36,720 nt of DNA from a bacterium (lineage in GTDB: Bacteria > Planctomycetota > Planctomycetia > Pirellulales > Pirellulaceae): positions 1-36,720 of the forward strand of contig JANSWS010000024.1 in assembly GCA_024743355.1 (NCBI GenBank). Reading direction: 5' to 3'. How positions within the stretch are numbered: position 1 is the stretch's first letter; each line of letters opens with the position of its first letter. Of the stretch, positions 3,001 through 18,942 are shown one piece after another. The notes under the pieces were generated by a model. It saw only the letters and a program-made list of their open reading frames with translations. It ran no database searches and had not been told where the DNA came from. Made by a program: the position numbers and the translations under genes.

Positions 3001-3031
3001 AGCCCATGATCAGGCCTTGCAAAGTGTCTAG
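2..3031 (+). CDS. Large surface protein with Ig-like, cohesin-like and tandem cadherin-like repeats (5' end outside window)
   Basis: The reading frame is open from base 2, so the true start and any signal peptide lie upstream. Counting residues from the GTG at 86, a putative Ig domain of the He_PIG type spans about 30-95 (GLVYAL...PAGMTIN then GEIAWTP). A cohesin-like beta domain follows at about 97-250. Four cadherin-like 'tandem-95' repeats cover about 253-640, each with an LDVLAND-type start, an (I/L)xYTPxxxFxG core and a TYTxSDG-type end. Next is a carboxypeptidase-regulatory/SdrD-B-like stretch (GRFQFSDVAPGEYTL, about 690-710). A roughly 230-residue low-complexity tail has two Ser-rich segments, each followed by GEGE. 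I see no dockerin, LPxTG or PEP-CTERM signal. Such architecture is known from very large secreted or cell-surface adhesion proteins, and a structural or adhesive role is inferred. The repeats are clear; the cohesin-like call is tentative. Confidence 0.85.
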   Translation, partial: TSLGQGSVSFTARQSLGGDTSEELAALSVILDRTAPSQIAAGVVPTSVVVGDAVSIDLTVPGEGQGLVYALTAAPAGMTINASTGEIAWTPTTGQLGTQSVGISITDIAGNTTAQDFSIQVTEEPWVELGINVVDANGQPLSTIGVGDTFVVQVTVQDLRGFQATGLFGAYMDLLYNESVIQLTSEPISRPEPYTNGPKGGTTTAGLVDELGAFSSSNSPLGAGLRVLAELEFTAIAVGDAGLMLDPADDAGNDVLLYGINEAISVNRVRYGTSSFAVGLDFELNDDVFNFDEDSSQQTLNVLDNDVISGNSNLTIVGVTTPASGAQVAISSDGKSILYTPAANFTGADVLEYTVQNQNSIQGVATVTIQLADVNDPPQALNDSFTVTENSSNNVLDVLANDNSGDDDPNSETLRILNVVAGSIAGTVSVRADQTLSYTPPADFIGSETFSYTLSDGRGATSVATVTVNVDVANPPPVAQDDNFSLTEDDGQASFDVLANDSTDDATETLSVSAVGTSSNGSVVQVAADGQSILYRPAANFNGTEVITYTLRDSGGATATANATFTVAAVNDAPTAVDDSASAISRNTTTSLDVLANDQDVDGDDLEIIAVTQPAAGNGSVAIAADGKSLIYTPPAVDFEGMVSLTYTVSDGNGESDTASVQIDVRDFIPRDIAGDIYYATFDLSSSLLSNLNVTLEGTDFTGNSLSRQAAVQGGRFQFSDVAPGEYTLIREPLPFLNDSGERIAISAAMEDGDLEQALRVTGSLRPQFFGIRDFLGSTFGHNLLVALNGDGTPAWTLGKGAWTELNSIDVQVDENEVLKIAAVNGSSQNVSASLPLNDNATRAYRVGEQTPYRLLRLRGTPEDVGVEPPASSSASTGEGEGQLSSNQPSSSSASLIGEGEAAPLPTPVPSGLAGSGQVNELPRPSIQAVRSTSLGQGGEAQSQSSRLSLRRSTLASGNSLTLSEAAVDEAMKSVLPKLEIGLSAGLESDLTGDNQSEQEAHDQALQSV

Positions 3032-4612: not shown

Positions 4613-5833
4613 ATGCTGCACTTGGATGGTGAATCGATTATCGAACAAATGGCGGACCACAGGGAGAACTACATCCCCCTGCACAGCACCGACGTGGTCG
4701 ATTACCTAACCCAATACTTGAGTCTGGACCAGACGGATCAGTCTGTGTTTCGCGAGGTATCGGCTCTCATTCTCTCGCTGCTGCATCACTTGTACAGACA
4801 GCGTCACGAACAAATCACCTATGTCTACACGGCTCTCGATCCAGACCGTGACCGGGTTCTGCGGGCTGTGCCAACCAACGCTTACCGCCACGAGCTGGCC
4901 CAGGAACTGTTGGAGCGTACACAGGACACTCTGCACCGAGCCAACTATCACCTATTGGACGAAGAAGATATTCAACAGGCACTTCGGGCCGCCAGCCAAT
5001 GGGGCGTCAACATGAGGGTGGACTTCGGGATGTTTGACATTCTGGAAATCCATGCTCGAGGTTACGTGGTCGGCCGCCGACAGTTCCGACACTGGAAGCG
5101 TTTTTTTCGACCGGAGATGGTCAGTGTCCCGCTGTACCAAAGACTTGTCATCATCTTTCGCATCACCGAAAACCAGAGTTCCGATCAATTCGATCCACGC
5201 AAAGTATATTTGCGAATGTTCAAGAACGTCCCTCGCGAAGACATCGACATGATGCTGCCAGCAACCGGCTTTCAGTTGACCTGGCTCGACCATTCCAAGA
5301 TCGTGGTGCCGAGTTTGTACGCAACGGGTATCGCGCTGTGGCGTTTTTTACGCAACGTCTTGCTGCTGACTTTCTTCGGCGTGTTCAAGACGATCGGACT
5401 TTTCGTACTGGTAGTTCTTGCCATCGGCTTTGGTGTCAAGTCGATGTTTACCTATCGTAGCAACACGCAACGTCGTTACATGCTCAACATGACCCAGAGC
5501 CTGTATTACCAGAATCTAGATAACAACGCCGGTGTGTTGTTCCGTTTGCTGGAAGAAGGTGAGCAACAGGAGGCTTGCGAAGCCATCCTGGCCTACTACG
5601 TCGCCGCGATCCACTTCGGGGATCGATCAGCTACCTCGGAGGAGATCGATGCGGAGTGCGAGAAGATCATCCTGGAAGCCACCGGACTGCATGTCGACTT
5701 CGACGTGCAGTCAACGCTTAAAGTGCTAGCTCAGATGGGATTGATCCGCGCTCACCAAGACGGCTGGAAAGCGCTTCCGCTGCGGAAAGCAAAGTCCCAG
5801 CTCGATGCGACCTGGGACAATTGGTTTAGCTAA
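4613..5833 (+). CDS. DUF3754/TMEM143-like membrane protein
   Basis: A 406-residue protein with no signal peptide. The N-terminal half (about 1-230) is soluble-looking and includes a conserved-looking MFDILEIHARG...RR segment and a run of basic residues (RRQFRHWKRFFRP, about 155-167). A hydrophobic region at about 247-277 could form one long or two short transmembrane helices. After it comes the stretch LNMTQSLYYQNLDNNAGVLFRLL (written here in two parts: LNMTQSLYYQ and NLDNNAGVLFRLL), then EACEAILAYY and an acidic C-terminal region. This order resembles the DUF3754 family, which includes the mitochondrial protein TMEM143 and is of unknown function. The family call is from memory of its pattern and is moderately secure. 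It shares a 60-bp divergent intergenic region with the HAD gene. Confidence 0.65.
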   Translation: MLHLDGESIIEQMADHRENYIPLHSTDVVDYLTQYLSLDQTDQSVFREVSALILSLLHHLYRQRHEQITYVYTALDPDRDRVLRAVPTNAYRHELAQELLERTQDTLHRANYHLLDEEDIQQALRAASQWGVNMRVDFGMFDILEIHARGYVVGRRQFRHWKRFFRPEMVSVPLYQRLVIIFRITENQSSDQFDPRKVYLRMFKNVPREDIDMMLPATGFQLTWLDHSKIVVPSLYATGIALWRFLRNVLLLTFFGVFKTIGLFVLVVLAIGFGVKSMFTYRSNTQRRYMLNMTQSLYYQNLDNNAGVLFRLLEEGEQQEACEAILAYYVAAIHFGDRSATSEEIDAECEKIILEATGLHVDFDVQSTLKVLAQMGLIRAHQDGWKALPLRKAKSQLDATWDNWFS

Positions 5834-6110: not shown

Positions 6111-6532
6111 GAGTAATCTCCTCAGCGTCCATTAAAATCCATAAGCGGCACACTGCCGCGGAACCCAGGCGCCGATGCCTGAAGGCAATAGCAGTAAAGC
6201 TGTACGGATTCTATCGGTTCTGACCGGCACGGAGATTCACCGATTCCGGACCAAATATCCACCAATCGAAGCGATTCTTTCGCAGGCTGGAGTCAAAAGA
6301 TGGTCGGCAGCCCCGATCGCTAGCATTTACAATACATAGAGCCTCTCGTCTGGCGGGGCCTTTTTGAAACCAATGGAATGGAATCGCGAATCCCGGGACT
6401 TGCTAGTTGACATTCTGTTATCGCTGAGCGCAGGCAGGGGCATCTGACTGGCGGCGCCCGGCCTTCAGGTTGAATGCCATCCCGAAAGTTTCCAAACCAA
6501 CGATTTTCGAGTTTCCAAGCATCGAGCAAACC
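6111..6532. other. Intergenic region between lipoprotein (-) and CHAT-like gene (+)
   Basis: This divergent gap of about 420 bases should hold the promoters of both neighbours. A TTGACA hexamer at 6407-6412 is a possible -35 box for the plus-strand gene, but no convincing -10 follows at the right distance. A 54-codon plus-strand frame (6175-6339) has only a weak ribosome site and no recognisable product, so I do not call it a gene. No repeat or RNA gene is visible. Confidence 0.4.
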
Positions 6533-9500
6533 ATGACCTTTGCTAGCTTTTTTCCCCGAGCATGCTGGGTAAGCGCGTGTTGGCTATCCGTCGCATGCAT
6601 GACGAGCCAGCTGCCCGGTCAACTGGTAAGCGAACTGCCACGTCCCGAGTACTATGTGGCCAAGGAAGTTTTTGGAGATGGCCGCATCGCTGATGCTGCA
6701 GACGGTTTCGAAACCGTTCTAGAACGTGCGCGGAGACTGGGCGACAATCGCTGGATTGACAGTATTCCGGCATTGGTCATGCTCGGCGAGTGTTACTATC
6801 AGCAGGGCAACCTGCAAATGGCATTGGAGAGCTATGATGCCGCTTTGATGCTGGCGCTGGCCTATCCGGAATGGGTCAACCGCATCCAAGTTCCGGCCGA
6901 GCAGCTACCAGCTCTGGAAAACATCCCCAAGGGCATCGATTGGTTCCCCAAGAGCTCTTCCTCCAGGCCGGTAGTGATTCCGGAGGCAGTTCAGCTTACG
7001 GTTGACCTGGCTTTGGGAGCAGCTGACAACCAGTCGCCACAGGCAGCCACAGCGATAGGAGTTGCCACGCGGCTGGATGCCACGGAAGTAATCCGCACGC
7101 TGGGTCTGGCATTGCTTCGCCGCTACCAGACACTCGGCCCTTTGGCCGCCCACTCGCCATTGGTTGCCCCCCTGGATCAATACTTTTCCAGACCACCCTC
7201 GGCCCCGGCTGCCTGGCTGCAGTCCTCCTGGTCCGTACTGCGCGGACTCAACCAATTAGCGATGGGATCGGATGACGCAGTTCGACTTCTGCGAACCGGC
7301 AGGCTACTTGGCAATCAATTCGAGTACTTTTTGACCCCCATGTCGATGCTCAGTCTGGCGGAGGTTGAATCCCGGCAGGGCAACTATCAAGCGGCAATTT
7401 CCTTATTGCAGGAAGCATCCCTGGTCTCCGCCTATTTTGGGCAGGATTTTGAGTTGGCTATGTCTTTGCAGGATCTGGCCGCCAATGCTTGTGCGTCCCG
7501 TCGCACTGAATTGTTACCAGCAGTGCAACAAGCGGCGACGTGGTGCACCAAAAAGAGCGGACTGGCATTTGTGGCCGCCAGCATTGGTGCCGCCGAGATG
7601 GCTGTATACTCCGCGCAGCTTGGGCAGGCTGACAGACTTTTGAAGCAAGCCAATACCGTCCTGCGAATGCGTGATATCGTCCTGCCGCGATTCAATGCCC
7701 ATGCGAGCTATGTCAATGCCTTGCTGGCATTCTCCCAGAACCGCGCTGCACTTGGCATCCCGAATCTTGACAGCGCACTGCGTTTGCGACGCGGCAATGC
7801 CCAGACAGGCCCAACGTCCGAGCGGGCCTTCCAGGCACAAATGACTTTAAACCTACTGGCTGAGAATGCGATATCCGCAATGACCGCCGAAGCCTTATTG
7901 GACAACATTCTGGCGGAACCGTCTGCGATAGACTGGGAGCTCAATCCATTGGGCGCGTTGGCGACGATCACCACTGCCAGCCTTCCTGCCTACGAGCGTC
8001 ATTTGGAACTGGCTGTCCAGCAAGCCGTCGATCAGCGTGCGGTGAAAGAAATTGTACGGCGAGTTGATCGCCTGCAACGGGAGAGGCTCTATGAGGCCTT
8101 GCCGCTTGGAGGCCGCCTGTTGGCCTGGCGACATGTGATCGCAGCCACCGCCCCTGGCAGCCTGCCCCAGCCGCTCGCGGACCATGTGCGGGGCGTGCAG
8201 CAGTCTTCTGCTCAATTAAGGACCGAGTCTCAGCAGATTGCTGCGTTGGTTGACGCCTTGAGAGCGGGCCCCCTTCCATTGGATGAGCGTCAGATTCCAG
8301 CGTCTGCAAAACGACAATATGCCGAGTTGGAAGAGCTGGCTACCGCTCACGAAAGCCAGTTGACGCTGCGAGCGATCTCGAGAATCCCACTTGAGCGGTT
8401 GTTGCCAGTATGGCCCGCCATGGTCGATCCCGAGTTCGCATACTTAGAACCCTCGGACGCCCTGCTGGCGTTCGCCACCACGGGCCAATCAGTATTTGGT
8501 ATCTGCGTGCAGGGGCAACAGGTGCAATACTGGCAAGTCGACCAGCGAGCCAACATCGACAAACTACTCGGCCAACTCTTGCTGGATATTGGGCTGAAGG
8601 ACGATTCCCCCAGACCCGATCCATCCGCCATCACCAAAGCGGATGCTGCTTGGCGTGCCACCTCGCTTCAATTAAGAGACCTGTTGATTCCACAAGAGAT
8701 TCAGCAAGCGATCGATTCTGCCGAACGTCTAATTGTGGTCCCCAATGGCAAACTGTGGTATCTCCCCTTCGAATTACTGCCCGATGCAGGGAACCGCAAT
8801 TCTCCCTGGCTCGCCAGAAAAGCAATTACCTATGTGCCAACTCTCGGCTCAGCCTTCACAGCCTTTCGACGGCAGGCTGCACTTCAACCAACGGTTGGTC
8901 TGATGGGTAAATTCTTCTCACTAGATGCAACCACCAACCAACAACTGGCGGACGCCTTGGCCTTGACTACTGCCGACTCTTCGAGCGTTTCACTCACGCA
9001 GAAAATAACCGTTCCCTCAGCGGATTGGCTAAGAATTAGCAGTCGACAAATGTGGATTGCCGCTCGGGTGCCCATTTTGAGCAAGCCTCTTGAAAGCGTG
9101 TTATTGCCACTTGGGCCTGGCAAGCAATCCACACTTGGAAGTTGGCTGGAATCCCCCTTGGCATCTCCCAAAAACGTATTTTTGGCGGGCATGCGGACTT
9201 CCGCCGGAAGCCCGCAGCTCGCCAATGGCGATGATCTGTTACTACCGGCCTGCGGACTGTTGTTCAGCGGTAGTGATGCGGCTGTACTGAGTCGCTGGCC
9301 AGCGGGCGGCAGAAGTACAGCCCATATCATGACGCGTTTCTTTGAAGAGCGGCAACAAGAGCCACACTCCAATTCACTCCGAAGAGCCCTGCTGGCAGAA
9401 TGGCCGAGGGACTACCTGGTCGCTGAAGAGCCGGTGCTACTGCCAACAGCCCGAGACTCGGAACCGCTCACGCTCGGTGCGCATCCCTTGTTATGGGCGG

Positions 9501-9553
9501 GATACATGAGTTTAGGTGATACACGAATCCCGTCAGCCAACGCTCAACCATGA
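6533..9553 (+). CDS. Secreted TPR protein with degenerate CHAT-like C-terminal domain
   Basis: A 1006-residue protein. The ATG at 6533 is preferred over the TTG at 6470 because it opens directly into a signal-peptide-like stretch (FFPRACWVSACWLSVACM). The N-terminal 600 residues are helical with TPR-like repeats (ALVMLGECYYQQGNLQMALESY; later AEVESRQGNYQAAISLLQEA). The C-terminal roughly 300 residues follow the CHAT layout: LIVVPNGKLWYLPFELLP (about 730-750), the later SRWPAGG (about 920) and HPLLWAGYMSLGD at the end. In active CHAT proteases a His (ATHG-type) and a Cys (LSACETG-type) form the dyad. The equivalent stretches here read WIAARVP (about 840) and FLAGMRTSAG (about 882), so both appear lost. 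A scaffold or binding role is therefore inferred. It is convergent with the FG-GAP gene, 45 bases apart. Confidence 0.8.
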   Translation: MTFASFFPRACWVSACWLSVACMTSQLPGQLVSELPRPEYYVAKEVFGDGRIADAADGFETVLERARRLGDNRWIDSIPALVMLGECYYQQGNLQMALESYDAALMLALAYPEWVNRIQVPAEQLPALENIPKGIDWFPKSSSSRPVVIPEAVQLTVDLALGAADNQSPQAATAIGVATRLDATEVIRTLGLALLRRYQTLGPLAAHSPLVAPLDQYFSRPPSAPAAWLQSSWSVLRGLNQLAMGSDDAVRLLRTGRLLGNQFEYFLTPMSMLSLAEVESRQGNYQAAISLLQEASLVSAYFGQDFELAMSLQDLAANACASRRTELLPAVQQAATWCTKKSGLAFVAASIGAAEMAVYSAQLGQADRLLKQANTVLRMRDIVLPRFNAHASYVNALLAFSQNRAALGIPNLDSALRLRRGNAQTGPTSERAFQAQMTLNLLAENAISAMTAEALLDNILAEPSAIDWELNPLGALATITTASLPAYERHLELAVQQAVDQRAVKEIVRRVDRLQRERLYEALPLGGRLLAWRHVIAATAPGSLPQPLADHVRGVQQSSAQLRTESQQIAALVDALRAGPLPLDERQIPASAKRQYAELEELATAHESQLTLRAISRIPLERLLPVWPAMVDPEFAYLEPSDALLAFATTGQSVFGICVQGQQVQYWQVDQRANIDKLLGQLLLDIGLKDDSPRPDPSAITKADAAWRATSLQLRDLLIPQEIQQAIDSAERLIVVPNGKLWYLPFELLPDAGNRNSPWLARKAITYVPTLGSAFTAFRRQAALQPTVGLMGKFFSLDATTNQQLADALALTTADSSSVSLTQKITVPSADWLRISSRQMWIAARVPILSKPLESVLLPLGPGKQSTLGSWLESPLASPKNVFLAGMRTSAGSPQLANGDDLLLPACGLLFSGSDAAVLSRWPAGGRSTAHIMTRFFEERQQEPHSNSLRRALLAEWPRDYLVAEEPVLLPTARDSEPLTLGAHPLLWAGYMSLGDTRIPSANAQP

Positions 9554-9598: not shown

Positions 9599-11452
9599 TT
9601 ACAGCGAAACACCCTCGCCCTCGACGATCAGATGCTGACGGTCGATTTCGACGTCGAAGGCTTCGCTGTGTCCGCTCGGCCACCGCACCTCAACTCGCTC
9701 TATCGCTTGTGCGTCGCCCAGTCCAAAGGTGAGTTCGGGTTCGGATTGACTCAAGTAACTCCTCGTCGAAGTGTGCCAACGTGTCATCGAGGCTGCGTTT
9801 GTTCGGACGCGGACACGTGCCCCGAACGCATCTCGGTTGGAGGCATCGCCTCCTTGAAGCTTTAACCTCAACCAATGGTGACCGAGTGACTGGTCGTTGC
9901 GAAGCACTCGCGGCAGCCCGCCGTTAGCCACCAGAATCATATCCAGATCGCCATCTTGATCCAAATCGCCATAGGCGGCTCCACGCCCCACCATGGGTTG
10001 CAGCGCATCACTACCGACTTCTAACTCACCCAGTAATACGAACTCACTGGACTGGCCCGCCCCCGCGTTCCAAAAGAACTGTGGTGGCTGAGCATAGCGT
10101 TGCGTTGTTTGCACTTTGGAGATTTCTTCCTCCAAATGCCCGTTGGAACAGAACAAATCCTGCCTGCCGTCTAGATCCAAATCCGCGAAGCACATGCCAA
10201 AAGTAAGATTCAGTCGGCTGAGCGGCCCCAAACCGGTGACCATCGCCTGATCGGTGAAAGATGGCAGAGCCCCGCGTGTCATGTAGAGCGAAGATTGCTC
10301 ATTGGCAAAGTTACCAATGGCAATCGCTAGTGAATCGTCGTTTCGCAGGAAAGCACAGTCGATTCCCATAGCCCCGGTCGCATTGCCGCTTCGATCAAAG
10401 GCCACCCCCATGGAAACACCCAATTCCTCAAACCTCTGCCCCTCCATGTTCATGAAGAGAAAATTCTGGACGGTGTCATTGGCCACGATTAGATCTTGCC
10501 AACCATCTTGGTCGGCATCGATGGCCATGACTGCCAGGCCTTTGCCAACCGGGACAGCCGTGTTCTCATTCAGAACGTGGATTCCCATTTCCTGCGAAAC
10601 ATCGCGAAACTTTCCACCTCCCTCATTATGAAACAAGCTCGATTGGGAGCCGGTAAACAGCGTTGGCTGTCCGTAGGCTCGGCCAACCCCTGTGAGTTTG
10701 AATCCGAGCGATAGATCCAATTCGCGGCTCCAAAGCACGTAATCGCAAACGAACAGATCCAGCAGGCCATCATTGTCATAGTCAAACCATGTTGCGCCCG
10801 TGCTCCAAGCACTCGGCTTCCCCGACAATCCGGAGTCGGTTGTTTGCTCGACAAATTTCCCCTGCTGATTGCGGTAGAATCGATTGCTGCCTACCGCGGA
10901 CACGAACAAGTCCGGCCAACCATCATTGTCGACATCGCCAACGGCTGGTCCCATGGCGTAAAAATTCGCTTGCAGCCCCGCCTCGGCAGTTACATCTCGA
11001 AACTGCCAGTCACCTTCATTAGCGAACAAGCACAGCGACCGGGGATTGGCCTCGGGCTTCTTGGACCACTCCCAGGTCGTGCCTCCGACGAACAGCAGGT
11101 CTGCGTCTCCGTCCCGATCGTAGTCGAATACGGCCACGCCGCCGCCCATAGTTTCCGGCAGCAGCTTTTCACCCTCCATTCCGTTGACATGACGCCAATC
11201 GATGCCCGCCTGCCGCGTTAAGTCTTGAAGAGGAATGGTTGGTAACTTTTCCTGCGCGACTTCCCGCTCCTGGGGAAGACTGATGTCAGTCCGAGTCTCC
11301 TCCTGGGGAGCGGGCCGCAACAATGCCTGCACCAAGAATCCTGCCGCGACTAGAACAGCGATCGCTGCCAGCACCATCAGCGATCGCCCAAGCGCGCGAC
11401 CGATCACCTCATCGTCCTGAATCTCTTCACTGCGATTGTCTTCTGGAGCCAT
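9599..11452 (-). CDS. Membrane-anchored FG-GAP/VCBS repeat protein with ASPIC/UnbV domain (CRTAC-like)
   Basis: A 617-residue protein. A transmembrane anchor at about 24-46 follows an acidic cytoplasmic N-terminus, with a short linker to about 75. FG-GAP/VCBS beta-propeller repeats run from about 100 to 515. They carry calcium-type DxDxDG loops at D110-D112-D114, D173-D175-D177, D224-D226-D228, D312-D314-D316, D424-D426-D428 and D496-D498-D500. The C-terminal ASPIC/UnbV domain (about 525-610) shows HHWLRLKLQG, DAFGARVRV, and the YLSQSEPELTFGLGD to VEVRWPSG signature. The gene starts 4 bases after the cytochrome stop codon, so the two are almost certainly cotranscribed and possibly translationally coupled (AGGT about 8 bases upstream lies at the cytochrome gene's end). 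FG-GAP/ASPIC proteins are extracellular or periplasmic, and their biochemical role is mostly unknown. Confidence 0.9.
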   Translation of the reverse strand: MAPEDNRSEEIQDDEVIGRALGRSLMVLAAIAVLVAAGFLVQALLRPAPQEETRTDISLPQEREVAQEKLPTIPLQDLTRQAGIDWRHVNGMEGEKLLPETMGGGVAVFDYDRDGDADLLFVGGTTWEWSKKPEANPRSLCLFANEGDWQFRDVTAEAGLQANFYAMGPAVGDVDNDGWPDLFVSAVGSNRFYRNQQGKFVEQTTDSGLSGKPSAWSTGATWFDYDNDGLLDLFVCDYVLWSRELDLSLGFKLTGVGRAYGQPTLFTGSQSSLFHNEGGGKFRDVSQEMGIHVLNENTAVPVGKGLAVMAIDADQDGWQDLIVANDTVQNFLFMNMEGQRFEELGVSMGVAFDRSGNATGAMGIDCAFLRNDDSLAIAIGNFANEQSSLYMTRGALPSFTDQAMVTGLGPLSRLNLTFGMCFADLDLDGRQDLFCSNGHLEEEISKVQTTQRYAQPPQFFWNAGAGQSSEFVLLGELEVGSDALQPMVGRGAAYGDLDQDGDLDMILVANGGLPRVLRNDQSLGHHWLRLKLQGGDASNRDAFGARVRVRTNAASMTRWHTSTRSYLSQSEPELTFGLGDAQAIERVEVRWPSGHSEAFDVEIDRQHLIVEGEGVSL

Positions 11453-11456
11453 TTAT

Positions 11457-14402
11457 TTACCTATCACTTGTCTGAGAGTCGCTGTTCACGGCCACTTGCT
11501 CACGTTGTAGCGTCGGGTCTTCCCTTGCTTCGCTGTCAGGCAAACCAGGTGCCCCTTGACGATGCAACCAATAGATCACCAGGGATTCTGCGGCGTGGTC
11601 AGCCGCCGGATATTTCCTTCGGGCTATGGGGCGAGCCACATCCCCCGCGTTATCGTCCATCTTGTAACGCAGTTGCAATTCCTCGTGATACTGAGCCTTT
11701 TCGTCCTGTTTCCATCTCCGGTAAATGGCAGCTAGATTGGCATGCGCGGTTACGTCTTCCGAATCAACTTCCAGAACACGTTCGAATTCCTGGAGTGCTT
11801 CGCGCATCAGCTGCTGTGCTGAGTCCTGCTGCCCGCGTGCTTCAGCAATGTCGGACAAATCCAAGAGTGTCATGCCTAAGGAGTTACGCACGCGAAAATC
11901 CAAACTGAAGTCAAACCCGCGTTGCCGTCGCTCCTGAGTATCATCCTCGAGTACGCTTCGGAAGCTCTTGGCGGCATCTTCCAGGTACCCCTGTTGGCGG
12001 CTTACCTCACCACTTAGCCAAGCCAGCGTCCAAGCCGGTGGTGGCGGATCCATTTGGGCGGCCCGTCCTAGAGATGCTGTGGCGCTATCGAGGTTTCCTT
12101 CTGCAAACTGGACTCGCGCCAGGTTAAGTGGACCATCAAAGCGGCCCAGTTTCTCGACCTCCGCAAAGGCTTCGGCGGCTTGCCGCAACTGGGATTTCCC
12201 AGCCAGTAGCAACCCAATTCCGTAATCGTTCCACCGCTGCCACAAGGGTGGAATAGATCGCTGCTCGTTTTTCTCAGCCAGGACTGTCTGGCCTTGCGAG
12301 GTACGGACATCGAATACCACCCGATCCGATGCCATGACCACAACGGGCAACTCATTGGGAGTACCCTCCGGACCGCGTCCACGGAAGTCGTGGTCACCTT
12401 CGCGAAACGACCGATTTATGAAATCCAGGTAACCCTGGTCGAACTTGCGATACTTGAGTTCGACCGTGACCTCGATGGGTGCATCCACATCTTCCGGCAC
12501 TTGCAGGCCATAGTGCACGGTTTGCCCCGCCCCAGGCGGAATCTGATTGTTGTATAGCGGAACAAAAATGTCCTCCGCATTTCTCTCCGCAACTCGATTG
12601 CCATCTCGGTCGAGCATGAACACATTGACAAAATGGGACCACGGATCGACTTCACCACTCTCCGACATACCTCCGCTGACACCGATGATCCGGTCACCGC
12701 TGCTGGCTTTTATCTCTAACCAAAGTTCATTGGAATCAACGGTGCCTTGGGTCAAGTGGTGCCCTAACTTTGTGGTGCGTATCACCGTCTCCAGCAAATA
12801 GGTCTTTCCCGCTTCCAATTGCGGATACTCGGGGCCCAACGGAGCAATCAACTTACCTTCGATCGTTCCGCCTTCGCGCAAGCCGAAAAGATCGACGCGA
12901 GTCACATCGATTAGCAACTGTTTCGCGTGCTCCACCCAATCGTCTTCACCTCGCCAGTAGGGCAGCGCCGTATTGGCTCCGGGAAAGAAATGATCGTGTA
13001 CCGCCAGCGTCCCTAGTTTTTCCGAAAACCGGGCCCCGAAATCCGTCGAAGCAACCTGTGGCATGTGGCACTCGTTACAGTTCGACTCGGCTTTCTCGGG
13101 ATAGTAGAAACTCGACGCACCGTGCCCGGAAACACCACTTAACAAATAACTGTCGTAATGATTCTGCCCTCGCAGAAAATCCTTGTAAGCGGTCAGTTCG
13201 CGAGGCAGGTGCACTTTGTGGCAGGTGCTGCAGAACTCGGCCGACTTGTGCAGGGGCTTTAGAAACGTCTTCTTGTGGAAGCTCGGTTTCGCCTTGACCA
13301 ACAGTTCATTCACCATCTGCAACGCTGCATTGTCGCTGAAGGTGAATGGATATTGGATCGGCTCTTCAATCACATAGTCACCGTTGCCGCGATTGCTATT
13401 CACGTGGGTAATCGCATGGCAAACCGTACATGTAATGCCCGCCTGGCTCGTCGGATGATTCACATCGTCGTAGTCCTCCTCGTCGAAGGCACCGGAGAAA
13501 AAGGGCACCGGGTCGTGACATCCCGCGCACCAACGCGAGGCTTGAATGCTTCCATCGCGTTCTTTAACCTTCTTCCGCGTTTGTCGGACCGAATACAGAT
13601 AGGCGGGATTGTTGAAGGAACTAAAACGATGCGCGCTGTGAAACCAATTCTCGTAAATATCTTGGTGACATTTCTGGCAATACTCGTCGTTCTGCAACGA
13701 CTTGGCCGGAATAAAGTTGCCCGAAGCGGTTCGGGCTAATGAAGGCTCAAAGTACTTGGCGCCCTCGACGGGTCCCGACCGATTCCACGCTCGCGGGTCC
13801 TGCATCTGTGCAACAATCATCAGCCCAACACAGACCACGGTGGCCAAAGCGATGCGACGGCCGACATACCACTTGATGCGGGGACCCACCAAGCGATGCA
13901 GCCAGTAGAGCCAAATAGCAACCAAAGGTGCCAAGATGTGACACCAGTAGACCGTATTCCGTAACGCCGGCTGCTTCAGGTCAAAACCGAAGCTTCGCGT
14001 TAACAAGATGCCCGAAAGCAGAACCAGGATTGCAATGACGAACAGTGCATAGCCGATCTTTACAGCTCTCCGGTTGCGGCGTTTTCTCGCCGCTAGCATG
14101 TGCACCGTTCCAAAGACGACCACGGGAACCACCAGCAACAGTCCCAGCAGCAAATGCCCGAGGAACATGAACTGGTAAAAAAGATCCTCGTAAACCTCGC
14201 CCGTGAATTTCTGCAGCCAGGTGATCGAGGCCAGATAGATTCCATTGGCCATCAAAAGTGAGAACAATGCCAAAACGGCGATTAACAGGATCCTCAGCCG
14301 CGGACCAATGACCCGTTTCACGGGTTTGGCCATCGCCACAGGCCCCCCTGAATTTCCTGCGCCCATTTGCGGAGCCCCACTAGAGCCACTATCGGATGTC
14401 AT
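11457..14402 (-). CDS. Membrane pentaheme cytochrome c with C-terminal TPR region
   Basis: A 981-residue protein when started at the ATG at 14402; the frame extends up to a TTG at 14489, but that leader has no coding character. About five transmembrane helices lie at roughly 37-59, 75-101, 115-135, 149-173 and 183-200. Five CxxCH heme c sites follow in the exported part: CQKCH (242), CAGCH (292), CTVCH (325), CSTCH (391) and CNECH (442). Extra His residues nearby could be axial ligands. A beta-rich domain (TTKLGHHLTQGTVDSNELWLEI onward, about 540-680; here broken as TTKLGHHLTQG, TVDSNELWLEI) resembles those C-terminal to heme clusters in multiheme cytochromes. A TPR-rich tail runs from about 720 to 920. 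The role is probably electron transfer from the membrane to a periplasmic partner; donor and acceptor are unknown. It is coupled with the FG-GAP/ASPIC gene 4 bases downstream. Confidence 0.9.
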   Translation of the reverse strand: MTSDSGSSGAPQMGAGNSGGPVAMAKPVKRVIGPRLRILLIAVLALFSLLMANGIYLASITWLQKFTGEVYEDLFYQFMFLGHLLLGLLLVVPVVVFGTVHMLAARKRRNRRAVKIGYALFVIAILVLLSGILLTRSFGFDLKQPALRNTVYWCHILAPLVAIWLYWLHRLVGPRIKWYVGRRIALATVVCVGLMIVAQMQDPRAWNRSGPVEGAKYFEPSLARTASGNFIPAKSLQNDEYCQKCHQDIYENWFHSAHRFSSFNNPAYLYSVRQTRKKVKERDGSIQASRWCAGCHDPVPFFSGAFDEEDYDDVNHPTSQAGITCTVCHAITHVNSNRGNGDYVIEEPIQYPFTFSDNAALQMVNELLVKAKPSFHKKTFLKPLHKSAEFCSTCHKVHLPRELTAYKDFLRGQNHYDSYLLSGVSGHGASSFYYPEKAESNCNECHMPQVASTDFGARFSEKLGTLAVHDHFFPGANTALPYWRGEDDWVEHAKQLLIDVTRVDLFGLREGGTIEGKLIAPLGPEYPQLEAGKTYLLETVIRTTKLGHHLTQGTVDSNELWLEIKASSGDRIIGVSGGMSESGEVDPWSHFVNVFMLDRDGNRVAERNAEDIFVPLYNNQIPPGAGQTVHYGLQVPEDVDAPIEVTVELKYRKFDQGYLDFINRSFREGDHDFRGRGPEGTPNELPVVVMASDRVVFDVRTSQGQTVLAEKNEQRSIPPLWQRWNDYGIGLLLAGKSQLRQAAEAFAEVEKLGRFDGPLNLARVQFAEGNLDSATASLGRAAQMDPPPPAWTLAWLSGEVSRQQGYLEDAAKSFRSVLEDDTQERRQRGFDFSLDFRVRNSLGMTLLDLSDIAEARGQQDSAQQLMREALQEFERVLEVDSEDVTAHANLAAIYRRWKQDEKAQYHEELQLRYKMDDNAGDVARPIARRKYPAADHAAESLVIYWLHRQGAPGLPDSEAREDPTLQREQVAVNSDSQTSDR

Positions 14403-14518
14403 AAGAAAAGTATCCCAGTTTGCGTTAATTGCGATCGAGGCGGACGAATTCGAGCATCCACGGTCGTGGACAGCTAAGGCCTTGGGCAAGTCAGCATCGC
14501 AAAGACTGCCTACGGAAA

Positions 14519-14627
14519 CTGATCCACACGCCCTCGCAGGCAGGGATCAGCATCGAAAGACTTCGAACCGCGTTCTTCAGGTTCGAGATCAAGCAGAAAG
14601 ACATGGAGGTCTGAATGGACCTCCATG
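14519..14627 (-). terminator. Cluster of three inverted repeats between the small secreted gene and the cytochrome gene
   Basis: Read on the minus strand, three hairpins occur in order. The first is a perfect 10-bp stem (CATGGAGGTC/GACCTCCATG, 14602-14627, loop 6) inside the last codons of the 157-residue gene, followed by TCTTTCTGCTT. The second has a 7-bp stem (TCGAACC/GGTTCGA, 14563-14586) beginning 3 bases past the stop codon. The third has a 7-bp stem (CTGATCC/GGATCAG, 14519-14550). A short TCCACG-GT-CGTGGA palindrome (14457-14470) follows nearer the cytochrome start. They could terminate or attenuate transcription, or mark an mRNA processing site. The repeats are seen directly; the role is inferred. 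Confidence 0.55.
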
Positions 14628-15062
14628 AATGGGATCGACCAAGAGAAGCTGGGAGTGCCCAGGCGCGGCCGCGCTTTGGTTTTCGAAACCCAAAGCCTGC
14701 ACGTTCGCAGTCATGTCGACGGTCAAGCGATGGCCATCATTGGCCGCTGGCGGTGACACCGCAGCGTCTTTTCTGGAAGGACGACAGTTCGGTCCATCAC
14801 AGGGCTGACCGTTATTGGGAGCCTGATAGTAGTGAAACTGCCCACCTTCGTAGACGCGAATCAGGGGCCCGGTAGACCATAGATAAATCTGGGCGAAACG
14901 GCCCTGCTCTCCGCCCTCGAAAACCTGAGGCGAGCCTTGGACATAATGGCAACCGGCGGCGTCTGCTTTGCCATTCCAAGCAACGAACAGACTCACAAAC
15001 GCCGCGAACTGCAGCATTGTCAGCACTGTGCGATACAAAGGTTGCTTGCGAAAATCTGCCAT
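14589..15062 (-). CDS. Small secreted protein of unknown function
   Basis: A 157-residue protein I do not recognise. The N-terminus has basic residues (FRKQPLYR) and a hydrophobic stretch (VLTMLQFAAFVSLFVAW), then a plausible signal-peptidase site near KADAAG. The mature part has four Cys (GCHY, PCDGPNC and one near the C-terminus), suggesting disulfides. It also has aromatic-rich beta-like segments (IYLWSTGPLIRVYEGGQFHYYQAP) and a Pro/Gly-rich tail. The ATG at 15062 has no clear ribosome site. It lies 37 bases downstream of the large FG-GAP gene and upstream of the cytochrome gene, so it may belong to the same periplasmic system. Its last codons form one arm-pair of a strong hairpin. Confidence 0.6.
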   Translation of the reverse strand: MADFRKQPLYRTVLTMLQFAAFVSLFVAWNGKADAAGCHYVQGSPQVFEGGEQGRFAQIYLWSTGPLIRVYEGGQFHYYQAPNNGQPCDGPNCRPSRKDAAVSPPAANDGHRLTVDMTANVQALGFENQSAAAPGHSQLLLVDPIHGGPFRPPCLSA

Positions 15063-15099
15063 TGTTGACCCGGCGTAGTCGTCGTTCTACCGTTTCATC

Positions 15100-18000
15100 C
15101 TATTCCGATTGTCGCGAATCGTCAACGAAGCCGACTCGGTCTGGAAACCGCGTGAGTTGCTCCTGATTCAAGGCCCTTACGCGATCGGAGATCTCCGATT
15201 GCTCGGGAGGCGGCGGATAACTGGCCTGTTGAGTGAAGGGGAGCGGTAGCGAGCCCTGTCCACAAATCGTGTTCAAGTCGGCGTCCTTGTCCCAACCAAC
15301 GCAATGCAGTACGAAATCGCGGACCCAACCGTTCGGCATCTGTTTCTCAGGCACTTCGAATCTGAGCCGGATTTCGTCTCCTGGACTCATAACAACCATC
15401 CGATCGTCATCGGACACAAGCAGAGCACTGACATCACCGTATCGGGAAAACGGCCCCTCCAAGCCAGGCCACTTCGGCGTCTTCGAAACGGATTGATAGT
15501 CGTACCAATGGGGCTGGTCTGGAGCAACCTTGGATAACCGGCTAAAGCCTCGAAAATGTAACTCGGCAGTTTGCAGAGTCAGCTCTGATTGCTCGATTGG
15601 GACCGGTTTCGAATCGTAGGCTATAAAGGCTTCGTCCCAATAAATCTGCTGACTGGATGCAATTCGTATACGATGATCATCACTGCGGAAAATGCCCTGC
15701 AAATCCACCACAATCGATTTGGGCTTGCCACCTGGGAATCCCATAAATGGCAACGCACACTGCCAATCCCCCTGACCGTCCACCACCCACAGTGACGGGG
15801 GCTGCGGCGGACTCTGCTGTGGATTCTGAGATATGCCAATGTTCAGCGACGTATCGGTGGGATGCATCCAGCCTGTCAAAAAAAGTCTCAAATCGCGTTG
15901 GGTATCCAATTGGCCAAAATCGAGCTCCAAGAAATGCGGCTCGGCCAGTCCCTGGCACAGCAGGCGGTCGAAGCCCTGCGCGTAGACTTGGTCCCCATTG
16001 CTAACTTCCGAGCGTTTGTCTCTTCCATAAGTATCTCTCGCTCGCTGCGGGTACTGGGCCTGGCTGACCAAAAACAATTGATGTTCAGCCAGATGCGGCG
16101 GCCCCACTTTCTCATTGGTAAAGAGTCGCGTTCCAGCGGGATGGTCCACGGCCGTTAACTGGATGTGATCGAAATAGGCCACTTCCCATAACTCTTCGGT
16201 TACCCGCAGTTCGTAGCCGTCACCCTTGGGCTGCATCAAGCCTCCGGGCAACAACAAATTTTCCCAGCGACGATCCGGCATCAATTCCCCGCGGGATAGT
16301 TGTAGACCTAAAGGCGCATTCCACAGCAAGTCGGTAATCAGCTCAAATCTCTCACCGTTCCAACCGTAGACAAAGGGGCAGGAGCCCTTCAATTCCTGGC
16401 GTTCTTCGACCAGCGTATTGACTGGCGGATCCAGGAGATTTTGAGTCAGGCCATTGGTAAAAACTACCCGCAAATTCTCGGGCCTCTGGTCACCCAAACC
16501 AAAGTGGGTTGTAGCCGCATCAATGAAGCGGCGTTGCTGCCGACCGCCACTCCAAAGCTCAATCGTGGAACCAACCGAAAAATGATTAATGCGACCGCCG
16601 CCATTGACGTCGTTGATTCCACGAACACGGGCTGACAAATACATTTCGTCCGTGGGCACTCCCAACAGAACTTTGGCTCGACCACCCTCCACCAGGGCGA
16701 TATCCAGGGCACCGTCCTGGTTGCAATCCATGGCTACTAACTGCGTGACTTCTTGATTGCTTCCATCGATTTGTTGCAGGTCGCTCCAACCGACGGCCGT
16801 ACCACGCAAAGCTCGAACACCCTCTCGGGTCCCCAGAACAACATCCAGATAGGAATCATTGTTGAAGTCGCCGATTTGAATTCTCTGGGCTGAGGCATCC
16901 AGATTTAGATTGGTCATCGGCAGTAGCTCACCCGGCTTTGGCGTGCGGGTAGTCGCCAAAACGAGCTGTGTAGAATCGCATATCGCCAAGTCCCACGACG
17001 AGTTCCCATCGATCTCGGCAACCGCCAGATCACGGGTTTCCGAATAGACCGGCCAGCCCTCGCCGCTAAGAAAGCGTAAGCGAAACTGTCCGTGCAAGAT
17101 ATTTTCGAAGAAGACGGGCTGGTTCCCCTGGGAAGCAACTCCAACCACATCCTGGTCCAAGTCGTTATCCAAATCGCAGGCGATCAGCCGATGGAAACTA
17201 CCCAGCTTCTGGTTCGGATCGGGCGCACCCACCATGCTGTATTGCGTGACATCCTCGAAGGTCCGATTGCCATTATTCTGAAAAACCTTGATCTCGCCGG
17301 CAGCAGCCAGCACGAGATCCAAATCGCCGTCAGACTCCATATCCAGGGCCACAGCTGCTTCAATTGACGGCTGATCTTCCAAGCCACTTTCCGCCTGCAT
17401 TTCGGCGAGTTGCAAGCCGGCTGCGGCGTCGTTCCGCACTTGAATGAAAGTCAGACCATCCGGCCCCCAGGCCAATAGTTCCTGGTAGGTATCATGCCGG
17501 CTCGACTTCGATGCATCGTCCATTGACTCTGTGGAGAACCCCGCCTGTTGTGCGGCATCCTCGACGGTTTCAGGCAAGCGATTTCGGTCGGGATCGTCCA
17601 CTCCAAAAAACTCGGCCACCAGCATGCCGGTGACCCGGACACCAAGTTCCAATTCCTGGACTGGCGATGACTGCAGTACCCCTTCATCGATCTCAAACAG
17701 CTGAAGGCGATTACCGTCGACGCTCACAAGTTCAAAATCCAGATCCAGGTCATAGTCAAACCACGCAACAATCGAGGAAGCTGGGTTGAGGGCGGCCGAT
17801 TCAAAGTCGAGCGGAGACGCGTCGGACAGCTCTCCCTTCGACGCTTGCTGCGACAAATCATTCAGGAAGGAGGTGTCTAGCAAAGCCATAATGTCGGGTT
17901 TTACCAAGCGGTAATCGGAACGAAAGGCGGAGCTCATGCCCTTGATTACGTTGACCCACAACGGCAGCCTGCGAACATCGCGGCTCGTCCAATCCCCAGC

Positions 18001-18942
18001 TTCAATGGCCTGCTGGACCCGGGGCAGAAACTCCTCTGGCTTCAGACTATCGATGGAGCGGGCTACTTCGCTCCATAGGGGCCGAGTCACCTCGAGCGAA
18101 GGCTCCAAGAGTTCCGCTAATCGCGGATCCTGAGTGCCCCACAAGGTTTCCATGGCCCGCGTCAGCAACAACAGATTCCGGGGACGAGCCTTCCAGGAGG
18201 CGTAGAGGGCTTCCACATTCTGTTGTATCAACTGCTCATCTTCCGGTGGCAGAGTCTGGACCAGATCATCCAACTTACAGGCCAAAATCGGCTGAGCCCG
18301 ATCCGTTTCTAAAGCGCTTGCCAGGATCTTCGCAGCATCCTTTCGAAACTGTTCGTCCTGAGGGTATTCGGCTCGCAGCGCCTTGGCTTCCAGCAACGCA
18401 GCCTGTAACAAAGCCGCGCGTTCTTCGCCTTGATCTACCTCCGTCAGACGCTGGATAATCGCATCCGCGGTGGCATAGGCTTCCTCCAATTCGGATTCCA
18501 GCTTCGCGCGTTCCGCAGCGTCCTCCATCGTCCCGCCGGCAAGACGGTTGTTCGTCTCGTCGATCCACTTCAAAACAGTGACAGCTTCGTTGATCTTGTA
18601 TACGGAGTCATCGGGAAAATTGCGAACCAGGGTACGCCAACCGTCGAGAGCAACTTCGTAGTCGGCATCTTCGGCATTGGAAACCGTCTTTACCGCCAAC
18701 TCCAGAGCTTCGGCCGGGCTCAGCTTTTGCCCGTCGGACGCGTCGCTCGCCGACTGCCCGGAGTCACTGCCCGCTGCCTGTTCAGCATTCTCAACTTCCC
18801 CAGGCTTCTGTGCGTTCTGAACGGAGAAGAACACAAGCATCCCAGCCAGCAGAACCAGCCCAGCGAGTATTACCACGAGCTTTGACTTGCCATGCCTTGA
18901 GGGCAAGCCATGCATCGGTACGAGAGGGTCTCTGGATTTCAC
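15100..18942 (-). CDS. Large membrane-anchored FG-GAP/ASPIC protein with uncharacterised C-terminal module
   Basis: A 1280-residue protein. The GTG at 18942 is supported by GGGAG about 9 bases upstream; an in-frame ATG at 18915 is an alternative. A single transmembrane anchor lies at about 21-41. An acidic linker and a helical, TPR-like region (about 75-340) follow. Scattered FG-GAP/VCBS units lie at about 390-420, 530-565, 588-620, 640-660, 688-715 and 736-762 (DMESDGDLDLVLA, DLDNDLDQDVVGV, DFNNDSYLDVVLG, DCNQDGALDIALV). An ASPIC/UnbV domain covers about 765-848 (GSTIELWSGG, HFGLGDQRPENLRVVFTNG). The last 430 residues open with CPFVYGWNGERFELITDLLWNAPLG (split: CPFVYGWNGERF, ELITDLLWNAPLG) and look beta-rich. 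I have seen similar starts after ASPIC domains but know no function. It is probably the first gene of the cytochrome cluster. Confidence 0.85.
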   Translation of the reverse strand: MKSRDPLVPMHGLPSRHGKSKLVVILAGLVLLAGMLVFFSVQNAQKPGEVENAEQAAGSDSGQSASDASDGQKLSPAEALELAVKTVSNAEDADYEVALDGWRTLVRNFPDDSVYKINEAVTVLKWIDETNNRLAGGTMEDAAERAKLESELEEAYATADAIIQRLTEVDQGEERAALLQAALLEAKALRAEYPQDEQFRKDAAKILASALETDRAQPILACKLDDLVQTLPPEDEQLIQQNVEALYASWKARPRNLLLLTRAMETLWGTQDPRLAELLEPSLEVTRPLWSEVARSIDSLKPEEFLPRVQQAIEAGDWTSRDVRRLPLWVNVIKGMSSAFRSDYRLVKPDIMALLDTSFLNDLSQQASKGELSDASPLDFESAALNPASSIVAWFDYDLDLDFELVSVDGNRLQLFEIDEGVLQSSPVQELELGVRVTGMLVAEFFGVDDPDRNRLPETVEDAAQQAGFSTESMDDASKSSRHDTYQELLAWGPDGLTFIQVRNDAAAGLQLAEMQAESGLEDQPSIEAAVALDMESDGDLDLVLAAAGEIKVFQNNGNRTFEDVTQYSMVGAPDPNQKLGSFHRLIACDLDNDLDQDVVGVASQGNQPVFFENILHGQFRLRFLSGEGWPVYSETRDLAVAEIDGNSSWDLAICDSTQLVLATTRTPKPGELLPMTNLNLDASAQRIQIGDFNNDSYLDVVLGTREGVRALRGTAVGWSDLQQIDGSNQEVTQLVAMDCNQDGALDIALVEGGRAKVLLGVPTDEMYLSARVRGINDVNGGGRINHFSVGSTIELWSGGRQQRRFIDAATTHFGLGDQRPENLRVVFTNGLTQNLLDPPVNTLVEERQELKGSCPFVYGWNGERFELITDLLWNAPLGLQLSRGELMPDRRWENLLLPGGLMQPKGDGYELRVTEELWEVAYFDHIQLTAVDHPAGTRLFTNEKVGPPHLAEHQLFLVSQAQYPQRARDTYGRDKRSEVSNGDQVYAQGFDRLLCQGLAEPHFLELDFGQLDTQRDLRLFLTGWMHPTDTSLNIGISQNPQQSPPQPPSLWVVDGQGDWQCALPFMGFPGGKPKSIVVDLQGIFRSDDHRIRIASSQQIYWDEAFIAYDSKPVPIEQSELTLQTAELHFRGFSRLSKVAPDQPHWYDYQSVSKTPKWPGLEGPFSRYGDVSALLVSDDDRMVVMSPGDEIRLRFEVPEKQMPNGWVRDFVLHCVGWDKDADLNTICGQGSLPLPFTQQASYPPPPEQSEISDRVRALNQEQLTRFPDRVGFVDDSRQSE

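Follow-up and report, generated by a model that had tools for sequence, protein, structure and literature searches.

The Cbc and CbcL complexes of Geobacter are membrane b/c quinol dehydrogenases in which a diheme b transmembrane module is coupled to multiheme c-type domains. To our knowledge these complexes presumably differ from the protein described here in transmembrane arrangement and c domain, and they have no propeller partners. Another comparable group is the PHC family, which includes cytochrome c552 from T. tepidum (5ze8), ExtKL and Gsu2801 from Geobacter, and the sPHC and lPHC proteins of cable bacteria. These proteins contain five CXXCH hemes followed by a beta domain. The cable-bacteria PHCs are predicted to be soluble and extracytoplasmic, and their models contain at least one pentacoordinate heme, according to the sections of PMC11976967 that describe them.

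Murine CRTAC1 (9etn) and the bacterial UnbV/ASPIC proteins contain an FG-GAP propeller and an ASPIC region. FG-GAP/ASPIC proteins were thought by the initial annotation of this DNA to be common in planctomycetes, and in our scan six genomes had between 5 and 17 UnbV_ASPIC matches apiece, whereas 14 control genomes had none. We know of no settled role for these proteins in planctomycetes. In the parts of PMC3174227 and PMC3909097 that mention it, ASPIC/UnbV appears in tables or domain lists. In HZS-like alpha/betagamma clusters, a CRTAC1-type FG-GAP gene sits next to genes for multiheme proteins, which in clade I contain c554 domains, as outlined in the relevant part of PMC12758564.

A planctomycete locus with a cytochrome and two propeller proteins

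We analyzed a 36,720-nucleotide stretch of DNA (the window) from a member of the Pirellulaceae. The four minus-strand genes that had been annotated in it were all recovered as open reading frames, with the same coordinates and order. The genes and their parts are:

9599..11452, minus strand: CRTAC protein, 617 aa, with an N-terminal anchor, FG-GAP beta-propeller repeats and a C-terminal UnbV/ASPIC domain
11457..14402, minus strand: cytochrome gene, 981 aa from the ATG at 14402 (ORF, motifs, predicted structure)
13806..14303, minus strand: membrane module of the cytochrome, five predicted helices with four invariant His, predicted N-in/C-out
12312..13709, minus strand: pentaheme c and beta domain of the cytochrome, residues 232-697, five CXXCH, match to T. 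tepidum pentaheme c552
11592..12245, minus strand: C-terminal TPR-like solenoid of the cytochrome, residues 720-937 (predicted structure, TPR alignments)
14589..15062, minus strand: small secreted Cys protein, 157 aa, with a signal peptide, an early Cys and then PCxGPxC
14602..14627, minus strand: terminator-like hairpin at the 3' end of the small gene, 10 pairs and a loop of 6
15100..18942, minus strand: 1280-aa propeller protein (Big), with an N-terminal anchor, a CRTAC-like propeller and ASPIC region, and an extra C-terminal domain
16396..17802, minus strand: CRTAC1-like part of Big, residues 381-849 (model mf3a6e7339ed2 compared with murine CRTAC1, 9etn)
15133..16395, minus strand: beta-rich C-terminal part of Big, residues 850-1270, conserved

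As reported before, 4 bases separate the cytochrome gene from the CRTAC gene. We used the ATG at 14402 as the cytochrome start; the TTG at 14489 chosen in the initial annotation adds 29 aa, and clear conservation begins only near residue 33, leaving the start codon uncertain. The immediate neighbors of the four-gene set are a CHAT-TPR gene and an aconitase gene.

The cytochrome is predicted to carry a diheme b module

The cytochrome had been annotated with five transmembrane segments. Its predicted structure (pLDDT 85.9, pTM 0.82) contains five long N-terminal helices at residues 34-67, 74-105, 111-135, 145-171 and 178-199, but a plain hydropathy scan flagged only four segments, with helix 145-171 below the threshold. 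Loop charges follow the positive-inside pattern for a predicted topology with the N-terminus in and the C-terminus out. Four His residues in two of these helices (H83, H101, H155, H169) are invariant in 107/107 aligned rows, which represent 95 distinct sequences since some genomes are present twice, and they are also kept in 21/21 rows down to 30% identity. Judged by helix ends and topology, these residues pair by depth as H83/H155 and H101/H169. Because the four membrane His are invariant and lie at matching depths, they are predicted to hold two b hemes.

The membrane module is followed by the pentaheme region. Five CXXCH motifs are present, at residues 242, 292, 325, 391 and 442, in agreement with the earlier assignment. 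Exactly five were found in 110/110 cytochrome loci, in the window copy and in 20 further distant copies. The protein has a match to the Pfam family Cytochrome_C554 (25.3 bits; cut-off 20.8), and its match to NF040886 (ExtKL), at 23.4 bits, is far under the cut-off of 250. Residues 232-697 of the model match 5ze8 (VIA Z 15.3, rmsd 3.7 over 340 residues, 18% identity), including the Ig-like/beta C-terminal domain of the PHC family. Among the best 50 VIA matches listed, 5ze8 is the only heme protein, and most entries with a comparable Z are TPR proteins whose alignments fall largely on the C-terminal repeats; that list carries no information on the transmembrane part. At the sequence level, phmmer gave E=7.1e-4 to 5ze8 for the whole protein and 2.1e-4 for the domain, spanning the first three CXXCH only, and a profile search gave E=0.0014. 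In its predicted fold, the pentaheme region is like that of T. tepidum cytochrome c552 (PHC/ExtKL type). It differs from the soluble cable-bacteria PHCs in being fused to five predicted transmembrane helices and a TPR-like solenoid. The Sec/Cys of ExtKL has no counterpart in it, and no Cys outside the CXXCH motifs is invariant or nearly invariant among cytochrome orthologues. Taken together, these features lead us to predict a seven-heme (b2c5) membrane protein.

TPRs had also been annotated in the cytochrome. The Pfam TPR matches, including those of the TPR_19 type, all fall below their cut-offs, but the C-terminal helical repeat in the model aligns with TPR structures, and TPR proteins dominate the best 50 matches listed when the whole model is compared with the PDB using Foldseek.

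In the heme and beta region, just four non-CXXCH His (258, 376, 471 and 548) are invariant across all sequences examined. Because these are only four for five hemes, one c heme may be open, that is, without a distal His. However, the fifth heme could have Met, Lys or a lineage-specific His as its sixth ligand. Candidates for the latter are H415 (106/107), H469 (107/107) and H427 (102/107), which are near-invariant in the main family. Distant members with all five CXXCH have other residues at these three positions.

Two anchored propeller proteins and a small cysteine-containing protein

The 617-aa protein contains FG-GAP_3 (E=2.6e-32, 111.6 bits; cut-off 26.9) and UnbV_ASPIC (E=8.4e-20, 70.9 bits; cut-off 23.4) domains and one N-terminal hydrophobic segment, consistent with its previous description as an anchored FG-GAP/ASPIC protein. 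It matches cartilage acidic protein 1 (9etn) at E=6.8e-15. No Cys is conserved in more than 90% of its orthologues.

Big had been described in the same terms. FG-GAP_3 is detected (E=2e-17). UnbV_ASPIC scores 18.2 bits, under the 23.4 cut-off (a second scan gave 22.7, or 25.3 with neighbors), but in the predicted structure residues 381-849 align with murine CRTAC1 at Z 32.2 (rmsd 2.9, 410 residues). Unlike CRTAC1, both window propellers are membrane-anchored and tied to a cytochrome, and Big carries an additional C-terminal stretch (residues 850-1270, about 420 aa) that has no Pfam or NCBIfam family match and on which the CRTAC1 fold comparison carries no information.

The small protein, first noted as secreted and Cys-containing, has a signal peptide and an early Cys in the context GC or SCGD[YW] followed by PCxGPxC; neither Pfam nor NCBIfam gives a match for it at E<=0.1. 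A small Cys ORF lies upstream of the cytochrome in 46 of 75 database loci, 41 with CxGPxC; in the control, CxGPxC occurred in 1 ORF in 1.87 million strand-bases. The small protein belongs to a recurrent family.

The cytochrome co-occurs with both propeller proteins

We surveyed 392 planctomycete genomes besides the window's own, of which 106 contain the cytochrome and 286 lack it, counting as full a match over about 480 bits. The CRTAC protein is present in 102/106 genomes with the cytochrome and 14/286 without it, and Big in 105/106 genomes with the full cytochrome and 57/286 without it; the Fisher test applied to this co-occurrence treats related genomes as independent. Within the window's own family, all three proteins occur in 11 sampled genomes and none of them in 9. 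By contrast, a control consisting of a single neighboring gene, nearly confined to the window's own order, showed no association (14/106 versus 23/286 overall; 10/11 versus 8/9 within the family).

Conservation of the cytochrome-CRTAC pair across the phylum had been suggested as a check on the annotation, with absence of the pair from related genomes as a refuting result. The pair is conserved and not a fortuitous arrangement: the two genes are adjacent in 90/106 genomes. The other 16 have no above-threshold CRTAC gene beside the cytochrome, and 4 of these have none anywhere; in two of the four (G289, G371) a weaker CRTAC match lies right beside the cytochrome. We also examined database loci, including Rhodopirellula, Stieleria and Roseimaritima, taken as the best 80 of 586 matches. 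CRTAC adjoins the cytochrome in 70 of the 76 with at least 600 bp downstream (L070, L083, L091 and L106, short of downstream DNA, were excluded). The 70 include L062 and L077, where tblastn revealed a CRTAC gene masked by antisense ORFs. The median gap in these 70 loci is 18 nt, and 11 have a 4-nt ATGA overlap. Among distant cytochrome paralogues, a CRTAC gene (E<=1e-100) lies directly downstream in 8/19 genomes; the paired paralogues are 35-37% identical over the matched part, and the 4 examined keep all four transmembrane His.

Elsewhere in the window's genome, a paralogous cytochrome with five CXXCH (contig C732) has no adjoining ORF with FG-GAP-type calcium motifs. Five other CRTAC genes (contigs C68, C347, C629, C739 and C108, four of them shorter than 7 kb) have no neighboring ORF with more than one CXXCH, so the link to a cytochrome seems specific to the window's CRTAC subfamily. 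A candidate Rosetta-stone fusion of the two proteins in G361 (a 1700-aa frame; 1697-aa ORF in L144) was rejected: the CRTAC match is read in a different frame, and what looked like an N-terminal extension comes from translating GC-rich DNA out of frame. Long open frames of 2101 and 2104 aa are present in G414 and G321; the one in G414 (L142) covers separate genes with stops between them.

Transcription units

In 51 genomes checked, out of the 105 with Big, the Big gene lies within 4 kb of the cytochrome gene and on its strand in 12 but not in the remaining 39. In the window, the terminator-like hairpin at 14627-14602 adjoins the end of the small gene and may split transcription into big-small and cytochrome-CRTAC units. 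The region has 19 such hairpin sites versus 10.1 +/- 3.4 in shuffles, making a hairpin weak evidence when taken alone. A promoter scan of the region gave fewer sites than in shuffles. A single four-gene operon is unlikely as a rule because of this hairpin and the distance of Big in 39/51 genomes.

Discussion

The initial annotation had proposed that these genes form one system. The conserved pair and the near-identical presence and absence of all three proteins uphold this for the cytochrome together with the two FG-GAP/ASPIC proteins; transcription of all four genes as a single operon is doubtful. A shared function of the three is strongly supported by these genomic patterns, because the patterns nearly match even though the Big gene is usually elsewhere. 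Features beyond those annotated earlier are the predicted diheme b module, the c552-type pentaheme domain, the possible open heme, the CRTAC1-like fold of Big and the recurrence of the small protein.

We consider it moderately probable that the locus encodes a b2c5 membrane cytochrome linked to quinone, which works together with two anchored propellers of the CRTAC type. The genomic data show co-occurrence, adjacency and invariant residues, and heme b, topology and fold are deduced from sequence and predicted structure. In such a periplasmic oxidoreductase module, the His in helices 2 and 4 would bind two b hemes located toward opposite faces of the membrane, and electrons would move through these between the quinone pool and a periplasmic pentaheme relay of the c552/ExtKL (PHC) type. 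For the direction, we favor quinol to periplasm. One c heme, probably without a distal His, may reduce a small acceptor or dock a partner. The CRTAC protein and Big, both anchored and facing the periplasm, would be dedicated beta-propeller partners of the cytochrome, and the TPR solenoid probably holds them as docking or substrate-presenting subunits.

It is possible, but less likely, that the system serves electron transfer only, with all c hemes six-coordinate, a quinol dehydrogenase feeding a soluble or outer-membrane carrier, propellers that act as scaffold and no active site in the cytochrome. The near-invariance of H415, H469 and H427 in the main family fits this, since lineage-specific distal ligands are therefore possible, as does the proposed role of ExtKL in extracellular electron transport and the link that others have drawn between the T. 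tepidum relative and an archaeal cytochrome nanowire (PMC11976967, in part). However, these His are replaced in the distant five-CXXCH members, and the cable-bacteria PHCs, with their pentacoordinate heme, are classed as potentially catalytic in the same part of that source. Shared regulation or habitat without contact, where the TPR and FG-GAP proteins build a scaffold in the envelope and the cytochrome forms a respiratory module of its own in the same genomes, appears improbable to us. It would accommodate the distance of Big from the cytochrome, the 57/286 genomes with Big and no full cytochrome, and the hairpin that parts big-small from cytochrome-CRTAC, but not readily the short median gap and ATGA overlaps of the cytochrome-CRTAC pair or the recurrence of this pairing in paralogues of such low identity.

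The locus might also be related to the planctomycete HZS-alpha/betagamma homologues found next to a CRTAC gene, as a variant that acts on nitrogen compounds; as noted, those clusters, in the part of PMC12758564 that covers them, pair CRTAC1-type FG-GAP genes with proteins that carry c554-type heme domains in clade I. The gene set in the window is different, as are the membrane anchor and TPR of the cytochrome, and none of the four proteins has an HZS-alpha or MauG/CCP-type (MauG-like betagamma) match in Pfam or NCBIfam; we regard this reading as very improbable. Pfam does include an HZS-alpha model.

We found no description of the cytochrome-CRTAC pair outside HZS-like clusters in full-text literature (CC-licensed PMC papers), nor, in the literature searched, of the cytochrome itself as a fusion of a diheme b anchor, a pentaheme domain and a TPR arm. 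The three-gene set looks like an undescribed electron-transfer machine. A further proposal, which we advance tentatively and regard as doubtful, is that the b2c5 cytochrome with an open catalytic heme and two obligate CRTAC-type propellers binding and presenting substrate could constitute a new class of membrane respiratory complex across Planctomycetota. If true, bacterial CRTAC1/ASPIC proteins would have a defined biochemical role for the first time.

Two CRTAC-type proteins are present or absent in almost the same genomes as a single cytochrome, and therefore the question of their role becomes testable. The bacterial relatives of animal CRTAC1 thus gain a testable job, and the cytochrome, which 106 of the 392 other planctomycete genomes sampled encode, may represent a branch of their respiratory chain that has been overlooked.

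Genes for a pentaheme cytochrome and its neighbors

The initial annotation grouped four minus-strand genes of the window into one candidate periplasmic redox system, and all four are present:

9599-11452, minus strand: CRTAC, 617 aa, with FG-GAP repeats, a clear UnbV/ASPIC domain and one N-terminal hydrophobic segment
11457-14489, minus strand: cytochrome ORF with five CXXCH motifs, a Cytochrome_C554 match and weak TPR matches
14589-15062, minus strand: small protein, 157 aa
14627-14602, minus strand: terminator-like hairpin of 10 pairs at the small gene's 3' end
15100-18942, minus strand: a propeller protein that we call Big, 1280 aa, with FG-GAP repeats and an ASPIC match below threshold

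The cytochrome was read from the ATG at 14402, which gives 981 residues; clear conservation starts only near residue 33 and this start is provisional. A single N-terminal hydrophobic segment is found in 61 of 65 complete CRTAC orthologues. Big was modelled from residue 381 onward (pLDDT 85.2) and its model matched murine CRTAC1 (Z 32.2, rmsd 2.9, 410 residues; next rows at about Z 26). Its conserved C-terminal residues 850-1270 had no family match. Elsewhere on the plus strand, the window encodes a DUF3754 protein (4613-5833, E=7e-23) and a 981-aa protein with tandem Big_9/cadherin-like repeats (tandem-95 repeat; 86-3031) that is probably a surface protein.

The small protein has no Pfam or NCBIfam match at E<=0.1. 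Of 75 database loci with sufficient DNA, 46 have a small secreted ORF with an early Cys (GC or SCGD[YW]) and PCxGPxC ahead of the cytochrome gene. CxGPxC, the one motif that our control covered, is present in 41 of these, against a background of one ORF per 1.87 million strand-bases in other DNA of these and related loci. Big takes the place of this ORF in 20 of the 29 loci that lack it. That the three recurrent Cys fit a metal or thiol function is speculation. Calls of terminator-like sites here exceed those in shuffled sequence (19 versus 10.1 +/- 3.4), so the hairpin is only a hint that big-small and cytochrome-CRTAC may be separate transcription units.

CRTAC is encoded next to the cytochrome

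A contig scan of genomes retained the best 80 of 586 loci, picked by similarity. Among these 80, CRTAC is directly downstream of the cytochrome on the same strand in 70 of the 76 loci whose DNA continues for at least 600 bp past this gene, the exceptions being L041, L079, L101, L105, L107 and L108. The gap has a median of 18 nt, with a 4-nt ATGA overlap in 11 of the 70 loci, and Big is upstream in 22 of the 57 loci that have 4 kb or more on that side. The CHAT and aconitase genes flanking the window's set were each found at 3/80 loci (one aconitase match was weak and many loci are short). An apparent fusion of the cytochrome with CRTAC proved to be an artefact. L101 and L107, with a cytochrome 56% identical to the window's and no CRTAC directly beside it, come from MAG records labelled Candidatus Kuenenia stuttgartiensis, a label that looks doubtful.

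Because the 80 loci had been selected by similarity, we used an even sample of 393 Planctomycetota genomes, 392 besides the window's own, with the same set for each gene (full-length cytochrome above ~480 bits, CRTAC at E<=1e-100, Big at E<=1e-15). The full-length cytochrome is present in 106 of the 392. A same-strand CRTAC gene lies within 1.5 kb of it in 90 of these (downstream in 89), and 16 lack an adjacent CRTAC over threshold. The cytochrome/CRTAC gene pair is conserved.

Distant paralogues of the cytochrome had no adjacent CRTAC over threshold in 11 of 19 genomes. One such group (L158-L161, 30-34% identity) keeps all four transmembrane His and the five CXXCH; CRTAC is directly downstream in G090 and G126, with none over threshold in G133 and G144. 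In the available DNA, no multiheme gene neighbors any of the other five ASPIC genes that the window's genome carries. At two of these loci (L169 on contig C68 and L170 on contig C347), an ORF of ~540 aa without a heme motif comes after the CRTAC gene on its strand, touching it in L169 and ~70 nt away in L170, perhaps a different recurrent CRTAC pairing.

The cytochrome, CRTAC and Big co-occur across the phylum

CRTAC is present in 102/106 genomes with the full cytochrome versus 14/286 without it. Ten of these 14 have only a distant cytochrome paralogue and four have neither (G067, G109, G273, G393). Two of the four cytochrome genomes without any CRTAC over threshold, G289 and G371, have a weaker CRTAC, 37% identical, beside the cytochrome. 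Big is present in 105/106 versus 57/286 genomes, although just 12 of 51 genomes checked had it within 4 kb of the cytochrome and on its strand. The Fisher values (9e-73 for CRTAC, 6e-52 for Big) count related genomes as independent and indicate no more than a very strong association. Cleaner evidence comes from co-variation within a single family and genus: all three genes are present in 11 sampled genomes of the window's own family and none in nine, and one genus contains both states (G249 and G363 versus G186, G245, G290 and G370). The adjacent CHAT-TPR gene, a single control that hardly occurs outside the order of the window, showed no association over the same genomes (14/106 versus 23/286; 10/11 versus 8/9 in the family). 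It encodes a 1027-aa protein (6470-9553, plus strand; CHAT E=9.8e-18) convergent with the CRTAC gene, and its relatives (~26-31% identity) are mostly in the same order and independent of the cytochrome. We conclude that the cytochrome, CRTAC and Big very probably share a function; that they form a physical complex is rather probable. Counting against this reading are the 16 genomes with no adjacent CRTAC over threshold, the 57 with Big but not the full cytochrome, the 11 whose distant paralogue has no such CRTAC beside it, and the five ASPIC genes that have no multiheme neighbor.

The cytochrome has a predicted diheme b module

An AlphaFold2 model of the cytochrome (54 aligned sequences; pLDDT 85.9, pTM 0.82) has five N-terminal helices (34-67, 74-105, 111-135, 145-171, 178-199); a hydropathy scan alone flagged four membrane segments. 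The heme domain and a beta domain (~500-700) come next, then a solenoid of helical repeats (720-937), for which TPR structures gave alignments. The family-average net charges of the N-terminus and successive loops are +4.2, -1.2, +5.1, +0.9 and +3.5. By the positive-inside rule, this suggests a cytoplasmic N-terminus and a periplasmic heme domain.

Helix 2 contains H83 and H101, and helix 4 contains H155 and H169. All four are invariant in 107/107 aligned rows (95 distinct sequences) and are also found in 21/21 sequences reaching down to 30% identity. Both helices would run from periplasm to cytoplasm, so that H83/H155 would sit close to the outer face and H101/H169 close to the inner one. Paired transmembrane His near both faces are the arrangement of diheme b modules in quinone oxidoreductases, and spacings of 14 and 18 residues are also known from FdnI and NarI. 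On the strength of this likeness we predict a cytochrome with two b and five c hemes (b2c5), in which the membrane module is likely to bind the two b hemes.

The pentaheme domain resembles cytochrome c552

The pentaheme and beta domains (232-697) matched cytochrome c552 of Thermochromatium tepidum (5ze8; Z 15.3, rmsd 3.7, 340 residues, 18% identity; phmmer E=7.1e-4 for the cytochrome). The pentaheme (PHC) family comprises cable-bacteria pentaheme cytochromes, ExtKL and Gsu2801; its small members are reported to be structurally homologous to T. tepidum c552, the cable-bacteria proteins are considered potentially catalytic because of pentacoordinate hemes in their class, and others' suggestion of a connection to an archaeal cytochrome nanowire is mentioned (PMC11976967). 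In the heme/beta region of our cytochrome, the only non-CXXCH His invariant in everything examined are H258, H376, H471 and H548. Four such His for five hemes suggest that one c heme may be open; that it is the catalytic site is slightly less likely than not. H415, H427 and H469, nearly invariant in the main cytochrome family, could be ligands there, as could residues of other types, which argues against an open heme. Preliminary data link ExtKL to selenite reduction in Geobacter (PMC5877670), making small oxyanions a reasonable first substrate screen.

Discussion

In our proposed mechanism, the b hemes and the pentaheme relay would provide an electron path linking the quinone pool with the periplasm, and the TPR arm with the two membrane-anchored propellers, CRTAC and Big, would form a periplasmic docking platform. 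We lean slightly toward the direction from quinol to periplasm. The membrane multiheme oxidoreductase is known as a kind. Our searches of CC-licensed PMC full text found no description of the CRTAC and Big partner pair or of this gene set, and no interaction or expression data for its members. The nearest printed association found was that of CRTAC1-type FG-GAP genes in planctomycete clusters resembling hydrazine synthase (HZS), whose clade I betagamma homologues also bear c554 domains (PMC12758564). The occurrence of two distinct pairings of this type, each joining CRTAC proteins with c554-like multiheme proteins, suggests that some of the CRTAC family may generally act as partners of multiheme proteins.
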